From Rippkaea orientalis PCC 8801 (GTDB lineage Bacteria; Cyanobacteriota; Cyanobacteriia; Cyanobacteriales; Microcystaceae), in assembly GCF_000021805.1 (NCBI RefSeq), contig NC_011726.1, positions 2,356,001 to 2,420,000 on the forward strand: a stretch of 64,000 nucleotides of DNA. Reading direction: 5' to 3'. A model generated the notes under the pieces. That model worked only from the letters and a program-made list of their open reading frames with translations, was not told the origin of the DNA and searched no databases. Each line of letters opens with the position of its first letter. Position 1 is the first letter of the stretch. This document shows, one piece after another, positions 2,759 through 12,456 of the stretch. A program made the position numbers and the translations under genes.

Positions 2759-3088
2759 ATGACCATTATTGTTAAGCATAGCACCACTGGGAATTATTAT
2801 TTGTTATTAGGAACAGGAGGGGGAGTCGATCAAAATTTAATCTCCCCCCGTTTTCTCAAGAATTTGTTACCGATCATGGTGACAGTCTGCGATCGCAATG
2901 GTAATATTTTTGGACTTCCTGCCTCTGAATTGGTAGTAACCACTCTCGATGGACAACCCCCCTCAGAATTATTACCTGAACCAGAAGTCATTCCTCCACC
3001 CCCTCCTTTTGAGCCTGAAGTCACTCAAACAACTCAACAGTCAGAAGTAGAAGTATTTGAAGATGATGACGATGAGGAATGGATTTAA
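2759..3088 (+). CDS. Small cyanobacterial protein with proline-rich, acidic tail
   Basis: 109 residues, not recognised. The N-terminal ~65 residues look folded (alternating hydrophobic residues, a GTGGG loop at about 19-23, and a VTVCDRNGNIFG strand-turn-strand). A proline stretch (IPPPPPFEPE) follows at about 78-87, and the protein ends in a strongly acidic tail EDDDDEE. There is no signal peptide or membrane segment, so it is probably cytoplasmic. It starts 23 bases after txlA and could be co-transcribed. A HIP1 octamer lies inside the gene near 2889, so it looks native. The opposite-strand open frame at 2830-3024 is its shadow. Confidence 0.7.
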   Translation: MTIIVKHSTTGNYYLLLGTGGGVDQNLISPRFLKNLLPIMVTVCDRNGNIFGLPASELVVTTLDGQPPSELLPEPEVIPPPPPFEPEVTQTTQQSEVEVFEDDDDEEWI

Positions 3089-5641: not shown

Positions 5642-7081
5642 TTAAGATAAACGCTGATATTGCTCCTGATTAATGCGTCCTGCTGCATATAAAGTCTCTG
5701 TAATTTCAGAAATTTTTAACACAGAATAGGCTGTATAACCATAACTTTCAATCTTATCTTTAACATTTTCTTCATGGTCAATAAAAACCACAATATCTTT
5801 GACAATTAATCCAGAAGATTGTAATTTTTCCGCTCCTTCTATTACACTTTTACCCGTAATTAAAATATCATCAATCAAAACAACTTTTTCTCCGGGGTTA
5901 AACTCCCCTTCAATTAAGCGACGAGTTCCATGAGCTTTAATTTCTTTACGAGGATAAATCATCGGATGATGTAACATCAAAGATAACCCTGTTGCTGTCG
6001 GTAAAGAACCATAGGGAATACCCGCAATGCGATCAAATTCTAATTGGTCAAGAATATCAGCATAAGCTCTTAATACTTGATGGAAAATCTGAGGATTAGA
6101 AATAATTTGCCTCAGATCAATATAATAGGAAAAAGTTGCTCCCGATGCTTGCACATATTCCCCAAATAGCAAACAACCAATATCATATAATTGCAAAATC
6201 AAATCTTGATAGGGATGGGGATTAAATAAACAGACATCAGAAGTCCACAATTGACAACTATTCTGTTGACTCATAATTTGATTTCGAGTTCGATTAATCT
6301 CTTGATTTAGAGTTTTAACCTGTTCTTTTAAATGGTCTGCCTTTAAAAAATCTTGAGGAATCGGAATCAATAACCCATCCCCATTGCTATTTAAACCTGC
6401 CGTTAAAATGGTTTCAAGTTGATTTTTTTGTGACCAAATACTTCGCATTAAAATAAATCTTTCAGGTGCAATTGAGCGAATTTTTTTAATCACCTCTACA
6501 TCAGTCGTTCCGACTTCTAATAAAACTTGTTCTATTGTTCCCCACATTTTCGCTTCTTTAACCACCTGTAGATAAAAAGGCGTTTCAGGAGTCGGGTATT
6601 CCTGTAAAGCGATCGCCCCGGGATTAGAAGAATGACACAGCACAAAAACACCCTTATCAGGATAAACTAAAAAAGGAGCAACCTGATCATGGCCACTATA
6701 GGGACTAACCGTGACTGCATCCACTTTCCACTGTTCAAAAATTGCCTTAGCAAAAATCGTACTGGTATTAAGATCCCCGTGTTTTGCATCTAAAATAATC
6801 GGAATATCTGGGGGAATTTCTGCGATAATTTCAGACAGTAATTCTAACCCTAACGCTCCTAATACTTGGTAAAATCCCAAGGTGGGTTTATAGGCACAAA
6901 CTGATCCCATCGTCTCGCTAATAATCGATTTAAGCCAAGTTGACCACTGTTTTTTCAAAGAGTCTGGTGAGCAGTCGTTATAATGGTATTGGAGCATCAT
7001 TTCTGGATTAGGATCAAGTCCAACAACCAATAACGTTTCATGATAGGTTATGGCTTGGGTCAATTTCTCAAAAAAACTCAT
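5642..7081 (-). CDS. pyrFE: Bifunctional OMP decarboxylase / orotate phosphoribosyltransferase
   Basis: Catalyses the last two steps of UMP synthesis in one 479-residue chain. Residues 1 to ~275 are an orotidine-5'-phosphate decarboxylase: GLDPNP at 21-26, a conserved lysine in YKPTLGFYQ, and DAKHGD at 98-103 (the catalytic D-x-K-x-x-D signature). Residues ~290-479 are an orotate phosphoribosyltransferase with the PRPP loop IDDILITGKS at 403-412. The domain order, decarboxylase first, is the reverse of animal UMP synthase and is known from cyanobacteria. Active-site residues look intact in both halves. ATG start; divergent from ccsA. Confidence 0.95.
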   Translation of the reverse strand: MSFFEKLTQAITYHETLLVVGLDPNPEMMLQYHYNDCSPDSLKKQWSTWLKSIISETMGSVCAYKPTLGFYQVLGALGLELLSEIIAEIPPDIPIILDAKHGDLNTSTIFAKAIFEQWKVDAVTVSPYSGHDQVAPFLVYPDKGVFVLCHSSNPGAIALQEYPTPETPFYLQVVKEAKMWGTIEQVLLEVGTTDVEVIKKIRSIAPERFILMRSIWSQKNQLETILTAGLNSNGDGLLIPIPQDFLKADHLKEQVKTLNQEINRTRNQIMSQQNSCQLWTSDVCLFNPHPYQDLILQLYDIGCLLFGEYVQASGATFSYYIDLRQIISNPQIFHQVLRAYADILDQLEFDRIAGIPYGSLPTATGLSLMLHHPMIYPRKEIKAHGTRRLIEGEFNPGEKVVLIDDILITGKSVIEGAEKLQSSGLIVKDIVVFIDHEENVKDKIESYGYTAYSVLKISEITETLYAAGRINQEQYQRLS

Positions 7082-10122: not shown

Positions 10123-10788
10123 CTATGTATTAACTTGCTTAGCTCTCAAAATTTCTTCTTCAGATAGTGAGATTCCTATAGAATTAATTCTTTCAAAAAT
10201 AGTAACTATCTCTTCTTTTGTCAAATTATCTTCGTCCATGGTGATTACAAGAAGTTGATATTCTACAAATGCTGATACTAATTTATTTAGAGTTTTTAAT
10301 AGATATTGGTTATTCTCTTTGGAACTCAATGAAATTTGTTTTTTGATAATTTCTTCAGACGAGAACAAAGAAGATAATACAATTACTTCTGCTAAATTAT
10401 CAGCTTTTTTTAAATGAATAAAAGTTTCTTTATTAAGGTCAAATCCAACCCAAAATCTAGAATCTTTATGAGCATGATTGCTATGCAAACAATGATAAAG
10501 AACTTGTAATCTTTGAGTACCATCGATAACGTACCAATAAGTGTTATGATCTTGATAGCTAGAAGTGCTAATAAAGTCATCATCAGAACAATTAAGGTTT
10601 TTTTCACGAGTTCGCAAAAAGATAAGTGTCCCAATAGGCAATCCTTTATAAATACTATCTAATAGTTTAATAATTTCTTTTTTCCCCCAGACAAAAGGTC
10701 TTTGAAAGCTAGGAATATGAATTTCTCCTGAGTCAATTCTTCTAAAAGTTTCTAAAAGAGTTTGGACTTGATATTGTGTTTTAATCAT
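10123..10788 (-). CDS. DUF262 (GmrSD N-terminal-like, ParB-fold) protein
   Basis: 221 residues made almost wholly of one DUF262 domain. The three family motifs are intact: IPSFQRPFVW at 25-34, VIDGTQRLQVLY at 87-98 (DGxQR, the ParB-like catalytic loop), and FERINSIGISLSEEEI at 198-213. DUF262 proteins include the GmrS half of the GmrSD type IV restriction enzyme and many defence-linked proteins; they bind and hydrolyse nucleotides or cut DNA. Most carry a further C-terminal domain (such as DUF1524), absent here, so this is a minimal form or a truncation. Its start overlaps the RelA/SpoT-like gene by 8 bases. AT-rich, with no HIP1 site seen in the operon. The family is firm; the role is inferred. 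Confidence 0.85.
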   Translation of the reverse strand: MIKTQYQVQTLLETFRRIDSGEIHIPSFQRPFVWGKKEIIKLLDSIYKGLPIGTLIFLRTREKNLNCSDDDFISTSSYQDHNTYWYVIDGTQRLQVLYHCLHSNHAHKDSRFWVGFDLNKETFIHLKKADNLAEVIVLSSLFSSEEIIKKQISLSSKENNQYLLKTLNKLVSAFVEYQLLVITMDEDNLTKEEIVTIFERINSIGISLSEEEILRAKQVNT

Positions 10789-11605
10789 CAGAAGTATTCC
10801 CCAATTGTTTAGTTATTTTTTGATGGTTAATTTTACTGTCTCTGATTTCAAGAATAATCGATTCTAATAGATGTAATGTATGGCTTATGTAGCTAACTTT
10901 AAACTGATTTGTTTGATATTCCCATTTCCACTTACTATCATTTTGATTTGTCTTAAGCCTATTGGTTTGATAAAATTGGTGGGTTAAACTTTTTAGTACC
11001 TCTTGTAATTGTGTTGTAAGTTGAATTTCAATTTCAAGCTCAGACTTAAATTCTCGAAATGATTCATCAACAAATGACATATCTATGGTAACATAAAAAT
11101 GATAAGCATAGTATCCTTCATCTCTTTCTTGACTATAAAATCGACTTTTTAAACCAAGATTTTTGGCATAGTTTGTAAGTTGTTCAGCAATAAACCTGGG
11201 ACCATCAATAAAGCGACAAACTAAATATCCTCGTATTGTATCATTGAAGTAAGAGTATAAGTTTTTATCTGTCACCCATCCTTTCTTAGGTTCATTAGGA
11301 AAACTTTTATTCCATAAAACATTAATCCTAAAAGATTTATCAATAGCTGATTCATAAGGTTTTCTAACTAAATTTAGAGAAGATTGATTCATTAATAACT
11401 GCGAATTAGTGATAATTTCGTACTCATTAGACCAGTCTTCAAGTTGCTTGTTTAAAGTTTTGATAAAATTATGGTTTATTGCCTTAAAATAGGCATTATT
11501 CAGATTAATTTCATATCGCGTTTGAGTTCTCTCATCATCAAAATCAACTTGCAAACTCTCTCTACACCAATCTTTATACTCCGTTAAGGTTTGTGGTTTT
11601 TTCAT
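10781..11605 (-). CDS. RelA/SpoT-synthetase-like protein
   Basis: 274 residues. The middle resembles the RelA/SpoT nucleotidyltransferase fold. KPYESAIDKSFR at 82-93 corresponds to the basic substrate-binding helix and NDTIRGYLVCRF at 121-132 to the D..G.R strand. EGYYAYHF at 163-170 corresponds to the GY.S.H loop, and EIEIQLTTQLQEV at 191-203 followed by LTHQFY to the E(V/I)Q(I/L)(R)T motif with the catalytic glutamate. No HD hydrolase, TGS or ACT domain is present, so it is a small synthetase type. This group includes housekeeping alarmone synthetases and toxic relatives that modify tRNA or make (pp)pApp. Operon with DUF262 (8-base overlap). The fold call is by eye and tentative. Confidence 0.6.
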   Translation of the reverse strand: MKKPQTLTEYKDWCRESLQVDFDDERTQTRYEINLNNAYFKAINHNFIKTLNKQLEDWSNEYEIITNSQLLMNQSSLNLVRKPYESAIDKSFRINVLWNKSFPNEPKKGWVTDKNLYSYFNDTIRGYLVCRFIDGPRFIAEQLTNYAKNLGLKSRFYSQERDEGYYAYHFYVTIDMSFVDESFREFKSELEIEIQLTTQLQEVLKSLTHQFYQTNRLKTNQNDSKWKWEYQTNQFKVSYISHTLHLLESIILEIRDSKINHQKITKQLGNTSDD

Positions 11606-11663: not shown

Positions 11664-11684
11664 GGGCTTAATATTATTAAGCCC
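11664..11684. repeat. Palindrome, GGGCTTAATA-T-TATTAAGCCC
   Basis: Perfect 10-bp arms around one base, followed directly by CCTACA. It sits between the RelA/SpoT-like gene and the end of rpaB. The CCCTAC-type end is shared with the palindromes at 32824, 32866 and 57409, although the arm sequences differ. Confidence 0.7.
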
Positions 11685-11724: not shown

Positions 11725-12456
11725 TTACGGTTCTTCACCCGGTTCTAGGATACGTTGAAAAAGGTAGCCTGTTCCCCTAGCCGTGAGGATCAATTCAGGA
11801 TTACTGGGATCGTCTTCTAATTTAGCCCGTAAGCGGGAAATATGAACATCTACCACCCTAGTATCTACATGACGTTCAGGAGTGTATCCCCAAACTTCTT
11901 GTAAAATTTCTGAACGAGAGAAGGGTTCCCCTGACCGACTGACCAACAATTCCAGTAAACTAAATTCCATCCCCGTTAGTCGGATGCGTTCATCCCCTTT
12001 GTAAACTTGTCGTTTGTTGGTGTCAATTCTAATGGAGGCAATTTGTAGTACACCTGAACTGGGAATACCGGGGACTCCGTTTTTTTCCACCCGTCGTAAA
12101 ACAGACCGAATACGCGCTTCTAATTCCTTGGGGGAGAAGGGTTTGACAACATAATCATCGGCCCCTAATTCCAATCCCGTGATGCGATCGGCAACATCTC
12201 CCAAAGCCGTTAACATAATGATGGGAATATCCGATTCCTTGCGTAATTCTTGGCAGACACCATAACCATCTAGCTTAGGCATCATCACGTCTAAAACCAC
12301 CAAGTCGGGGTCAGCTTTGTGAAAGGTATCTAATGCTTCTTCTCCATCGGCGGCTGTGACCACATCATAACCAATCATGGAAAGACGGGTTTCTAAAATA
12401 CGGCGGATGCTGGCCTCATCATCTACTACCAAGATTTTTTCTTTATGGGTTTCCAA
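11725..12456 (-). CDS. rpaB: Response regulator RpaB (Ycf27)
   Basis: OmpR-family regulator, essential in cyanobacteria, that controls high-light and photosystem genes through HLR1 sites and is paired with the kinase NblS. 243 residues: receiver domain with acidic pocket DDE at 12-14, phospho-acceptor D56 (VVLDVMMP) and K105 (VVKPF); winged-helix DNA-binding domain at about 140-235 ending in RGTGYLFQ. The N-terminus METHKEK matches known RpaB proteins (memory-based), which implies a TTG start codon here; GGGAG lies just upstream. Reading from the next ATG would cut into the receiver domain. Confidence 0.95.
   Translation of the reverse strand: METHKEKILVVDDEASIRRILETRLSMIGYDVVTAADGEEALDTFHKADPDLVVLDVMMPKLDGYGVCQELRKESDIPIIMLTALGDVADRITGLELGADDYVVKPFSPKELEARIRSVLRRVEKNGVPGIPSSGVLQIASIRIDTNKRQVYKGDERIRLTGMEFSLLELLVSRSGEPFSRSEILQEVWGYTPERHVDTRVVDVHISRLRAKLEDDPSNPELILTARGTGYLFQRILEPGEEP

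Follow-up and report, generated by a model that had tools for sequence, protein, structure and literature searches.

Organization of the two-gene locus

We analysed a window of 64,000 nt from Rippkaea orientalis PCC 8801 (NC_011726.1, positions 2,356,001–2,420,000), in which two overlapping genes lie on the minus strand; coordinates refer to this window unless another locus is named. The first gene (10781–11605) encodes a RelA/SpoT-synthetase-like protein of 274 aa, recognized from its open reading frame, from profile matches to YwaC, RelP and RelQ, and by Foldseek. The second (10123–10788) encodes a 221-aa protein with a DUF262 domain only (GmrSD_N, PF03235; 2.1e-30). They share an 8-base overlap, ATGATTAA, at 10781–10788. 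Four motifs mark the first protein, namely KPYESAIDKSFR (11327–11362), NDTIRG (11228–11245), EGYYAYH (11099–11119) and EIEIQLTTQ (11009–11035), and three, identified by comparison of DUF262 proteins, mark the second: FQRPFVW (10687–10707), DGTQR (10510–10524) and FERINSIG (10174–10197), all of them on the minus strand. Both reading frames, the motifs and the overlap had been described from the letters alone, and we found every one of them in place.

A co-directional response-regulator gene (11725–12456) lies upstream of the pair. Between the two, a terminator-like hairpin formed by the palindrome GGGCTTAATATTATTAAGCCC (11664–11684, minus strand) suggests that the pair is probably its own transcription unit. 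A sequence resembling this palindrome is also present downstream of the housekeeping rel gene (L065, ~3003–3030), so the palindrome may be one copy of a dispersed element, either a terminator or a repeat.

The AT-richness noted for the pair is real: its GC content is 29.2% and that of the window 39.5%; of 626 windows as large as the pair, only 2 have a GC content this low. The absence of HIP1 sites, which had been read as a further sign of transfer, is not significant. The pair has none where ~1.3 would be expected at the 0.875 sites per kb of the window, and among the 55 HIP1 gaps in the window, 15 equal or exceed the pair in length. Elsewhere in the window (5642–7081), a 479-aa open reading frame appears by eye to encode a fusion of orotidine-phosphate decarboxylase with orotate phosphoribosyltransferase.

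The 274-aa protein belongs to the RelA/SpoT superfamily

Searches with the 274-aa protein alone found no matching family in Pfam, NCBIfam or PADLOC, and the proposed check against PF04607 gave no match in the three pair members scanned. The only PF04607 protein that we found in the same genome is an ordinary long housekeeping Rel encoded elsewhere. Against the PDB, the single sequence gave five hits (best 0.024), every one of them a GTP pyrophosphokinase. The RelA/SpoT identity put forward in the original prediction thus failed in every single-sequence family search, but it stood in family profiles and in the fold. A profile built from the five pair members described below (A5) matched YwaC (2.1e-5) and RelP (1.4e-4) in the PDB, with significant matches to RelA/SpoT small alarmone synthetases only. 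With a relative from Providencia added (A7), YwaC was matched at 1.4e-8, all ten matches listed were RelA/SpoT-type proteins, and CapRel gave a marginal match (0.41).

Comparison of the predicted structure with known folds, which had been set as a test, pointed the same way. Small alarmone synthetases alone occupied the first 20 and the first 23 ranks of two Foldseek searches (probability 0.99–1.00 for ranks 1–23). The underlying AlphaFold models are poor (mean pLDDT 49–51), and at a mean pLDDT of 51 the result supports, but does not prove, a synthetase fold. Together, the profile matches, the Foldseek result and the Providencia protein as a bridge establish, at the level of sequence and predicted fold, membership of the RelA/SpoT superfamily.

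Profile A7 also matched a CapRel-like synthetase with canonical motifs and donor arginines in a fragmented cyanobacterial genome (L067:339–1319), close to a PIN-type toxin gene pair (L067:1853–2523).

Relatives on Providencia and Proteus plasmids

The bridge protein, a hypothetical protein encoded on Providencia rettgeri plasmids, was reached by a tblastn search with one of the relatives from the other pairs (E = 2). Most of its length can be aligned with the window protein, and it scores 4.8e-5 (24 bits) against PF04607, just under the cut-off of 27. Its gene starts 3 bases after an unrelated gene for a 118-aa protein that has no Pfam match. This two-gene unit (L062:3365–4519; plasmid NZ_CP139432.1) is unannotated, and a like arrangement is found on the Proteus mirabilis plasmid NZ_CP137087.1 (L064:2635–3798); both units adjoin replication and ParM-type maintenance genes. 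The 118-aa gene and its RelA/SpoT-like neighbour are probably another unrecognized toxin–antitoxin-like pair. Since the partner here differs from that in the window, the enzyme would be the constant and the partner the variable element, which favours a toxin with exchangeable partners. The same pattern, a constant enzyme with varying partners, is known from toxSAS operons (PMC8832971, PMC10440598).

Conserved catalytic residues and an altered donor site

We compared the protein with FaRel2 at ten positions (R64, K66, S70, K74, R77, D90, R95, Y128, E145 and Q147), whose roles, including triphosphate binding by K66/S70/K74/R77, have been described (PMC11782079). Eight are kept. In the A5 and A7 alignments, K82/S86/K90/R93 within KPYESAIDKSFR correspond to the triphosphate-binding set at identical spacing; in the alignment to FaRel2, D122 of NDTIRG corresponds to the catalytic Asp (D90), Y165 of EGYYAYH, a motif that ends in H169, to the Tyr of the G-loop that contacts the acceptor base (Y128), and E193/Q195 of EIEIQLTTQ to E145/Q147. 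All eight are invariant in the five pair members and the Providencia relative.

The two missing positions are the arginines of the donor-adenine site (FaRel2 R64/R95; CapRel R79/R116), absent from all five members and from the Providencia relative. Position 80 is V, T, K or I and position 127 is Y, T or N among the five members, the window protein having V80 at the R64 position and Y127 where the canonical Arg (Asp+5) would stand. An Arg three residues after the catalytic Asp (R125 in the window) is instead invariant. With the catalytic residues kept, both donor arginines gone and an Arg at Asp+3, the enzyme looks active with a re-built donor site, and ATP as the donor is not assured.

The missing R64 and R95 equivalents could also mean that the protein is catalytically dead, or of changed chemistry, and controls the DUF262 protein as a regulator that binds nucleotides or RNA. 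The invariance of the Mg-binding Asp, the Glu/Gln pair, the acceptor Tyr and the K/S/K/R set in all members, together with that of the Arg at Asp+3, speaks against this reading, which we regard as unlikely.

The pair is a conserved module

We found five full-length members, all cyanobacterial: one in the window and one in each of four other genomes. The gene order is identical at all five loci, as are the 8-base overlap of the form ATGNNTAR and a DUF262 partner of 220–224 aa. Synonymous divergence is saturated or nearly so in most comparisons among them, and both genes have a dN far lower than their dS, indicating purifying selection. Distances of the two proteins rise together; the DUF262 partner evolves faster, as would be expected of an antitoxin or sensor.

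The surroundings are different at every locus and consist, by eye, of housekeeping or unrelated genes. The sole flanking similarity is a pair of diverged ndhD-type genes within a few kilobases of two of the pairs (L007:3652–5154 and L030:5532–7157), which is probably coincidence. Two of the five loci adjoin genes resembling PIN-domain toxins by eye (L007:7473–8236 and L029:2429–2929); at L007, an antitoxin-like gene accompanies the PIN-domain gene. The survey of homologues that had been proposed was therefore positive for adjacency, the two genes being neighbours at five of five loci, but not for the genomic context, as no recognizable defence island was seen at any of the five.

The RelA-like gene of the pair is absent from the six congeners searched. 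Their flanking genes are arranged differently and offer no clean empty site: in the one congener read at this place (G614), a different gene comes after rpaB, and in four the flanking DUF192 gene is located near another response regulator. The whole-genome survey covered cyanobacteria only (1,866 genome searches, repeats included), and collections of phages, plasmids and viral contigs yielded no close relative of the RelA-like protein. A pattern scan of genome contigs recovered one locus only, the patterns being overly clade-specific. Four plasmid DUF262 loci that we inspected encode longer DUF262 proteins (~520–570 aa), and a profile search detected no RelA-like neighbour at any of the plasmid or viral DUF262 loci that our searches had yielded. 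A weak match with stop codons in genome G594 was dropped for want of further similarity, and tiny matches in genomes of family f31 (E ~0.005) were taken as chance.

Overlapping neighbour genes are common in bacteria, so that two unrelated genes might overlap by chance in one genome. Identical overlaps at all five loci, in different surroundings and with saturated synonymous sites, refute this, and we give chance adjacency practically no weight. Given the shared overlap, the changing surroundings, dN below dS and congeners that lack the gene, the two-gene unit is a real module, rare and scattered, kept together and under selection. It is small and mobile-looking.

A minimal DUF262 partner

The DUF262 identity of the second protein was borne out by the PF03235 search (106.8 bits, cut-off 33.2), the match spanning positions 4–197 of the 199 in the profile. 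Above the cut-off the protein matches this family only, and no known toxSAS antitoxin family. A family search recognized no DUF1524/HNH nuclease domain in the DUF262 proteins of the pair, nor was such a neighbour gene recognized by eye among the listed reading frames around the loci. A truncated GmrSD remnant can be ruled out, with all five partners at 220–224 aa and the three scanned covering nearly the whole PF03235 model. Nuclease-free minimal DUF262 proteins are known from other defence operons, namely ptuXYZ, Menshen, Dazbog and PD-T4-2 (PMC11980606, PMC10952713).

In SspE and its relatives, the pocket that takes up the nucleotide is formed by the DGxQR motif (PMC9646914, PMC10952713). 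This motif reads DG[TS]QR in all five pairs versus DGQQR or DGHQR in eight other DUF262 proteins compared. Two of the five members have lost the Arg of the FERINSIG motif.

These features bear on two readings of how the proteins might work together. In one, they would form a signalling pair: the RelA-like enzyme would respond to stress or infection by making an alarmone or another nucleotide, which the DUF262 protein, as receptor and effector, would bind in its pocket. NTP binding and hydrolysis by the domain are known from SspE and BrxU (PMC9646914, PMC10952713), the pocket motif is changed specifically in these pairs, and the enzyme gene comes first. The DUF262 protein, however, has no nuclease or other output domain, and the Providencia relative is paired with a protein unrelated to it; we consider this arrangement rather unlikely.

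The other, which we hold to be quite unlikely, makes the DUF262 protein an enzymatic antitoxin that would hydrolyse the modified nucleotide which the RelA-like protein produces, with no stable complex. To our knowledge, no DUF262 protein acts on alarmones, and the overlap and close co-divergence of the genes suit a complex equally well. In favour of hydrolysis, some toxSAS antitoxins are hydrolases (PMC9712102), and DUF262 domains are NTPases (PMC10952713).

Proposed function

The reading that we favour, to which we give roughly even confidence, is a toxin–antitoxin-like or abortive-infection-like module: a DUF262 nucleotide sensor would restrain a RelA-like pyrophosphokinase. The first gene would encode a diverged RelA/SpoT-type pyrophosphokinase, and the minimal DUF262 protein would bind it and keep it inactive. 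On sensing the NTP state or invading nucleic acid through its nucleotide pocket, the DUF262 protein would release the enzyme, which may then transfer pyrophosphate to a nucleotide or to the 3' end of tRNA and so arrest growth. Toxicity, neutralization, substrate and trigger are inferred. The model of the original prediction, in which a toxic or signalling synthetase would be controlled by the DUF262 protein, is compatible with these findings. The RelA/SpoT homology, the Providencia bridge, pairing at all five loci, dN below dS, an exchangeable partner, PIN-domain neighbours at two of the five loci and minimal DUF262 proteins in other defence operons all support this module. Against it stand the absent donor arginines, the lack of a recognizable defence island at the loci and of close relatives in the phage, plasmid and viral collections, the small number of loci found (five, all cyanobacterial), and the lack of precedent, as we know of no DUF262 protein that serves as an antitoxin.

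More tentatively, the pair might be a new nucleotide-handling defence or toxin module, in which a transferase of the RelA fold has a re-built donor site, perhaps with a new acceptor or a donor that is not ATP, and is gated by, or signals to, a DUF262 nucleotide sensor. If this is true, it would be the first DUF262 protein to act as an antitoxin or alarmone receptor.

Comparison with known systems

Like the toxSAS FaRel2, PhRel2 and CapRel, the pair is a compact operon of two genes that contains a synthetase core of the RelA/SpoT type, with the partner adjacent at all five loci and with the catalytic Asp, Glu/Gln, acceptor Tyr and triphosphate-binding K/S/K/R at the same spacing. Unlike them, it lacks a detectable PF04607 match and the donor-adenine arginines, and its partner is a DUF262 protein rather than PanA (DUF4065), a pseudo-zinc-finger/ATfaRel2-type antitoxin or a hydrolase. 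RelP and RelQ (YwaC, YjbM) are the best sequence-profile and fold matches of the enzyme, which nevertheless shares only ~16% identity with them in the fold alignment and differs in its altered donor site, its DUF262 partner and a mainly helical N-terminal region of ~80 residues before the first motif.

With GmrSD, BrxU and SspE, the DUF262 protein shares a complete PF03235 domain and the FQR..VW and DGxQR motifs; it differs in lacking the DUF1524/HNH nuclease domain, in having DG[TS]QR instead of DGQQR, and in its length of 220–224 aa. The ptuXYZ, Menshen, Dazbog and PD-T4-2 systems resemble the pair in that a DUF262 protein without a DUF1524 nuclease domain is part of a multi-gene system, but the partners are a PtuA-like ATPase and a BECR-fold protein in ptuXYZ and a predicted OLD nuclease in Menshen, and descriptions of the four systems mention no RelA/SpoT-like partner (PMC11980606, PMC10952713). 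When neighbours were read by eye at the five loci, no ptuXYZ-type PtuA-like ATPase or PIN-BECR protein was part of the two-gene unit. The statement of the original prediction that no described system joins both families agrees with our literature search, in which none of the papers covered contained both DUF262 and 'alarmone synthetase'. The unit is probably a toxin-and-partner pair of a previously undescribed kind.

In conclusion, the pair represents an additional RelA/SpoT branch, with a changed donor site, that escapes standard family models, and it links a RelA-type enzyme to DUF262, a domain that is poorly understood in the forms without a nuclease found in defence operons. As the pair consists of only two genes and has no nuclease, it would allow a direct test of whether DUF262 can switch a partner enzyme by sensing nucleotides; such a role has already been suggested for SspE, BrxU and Menshen.
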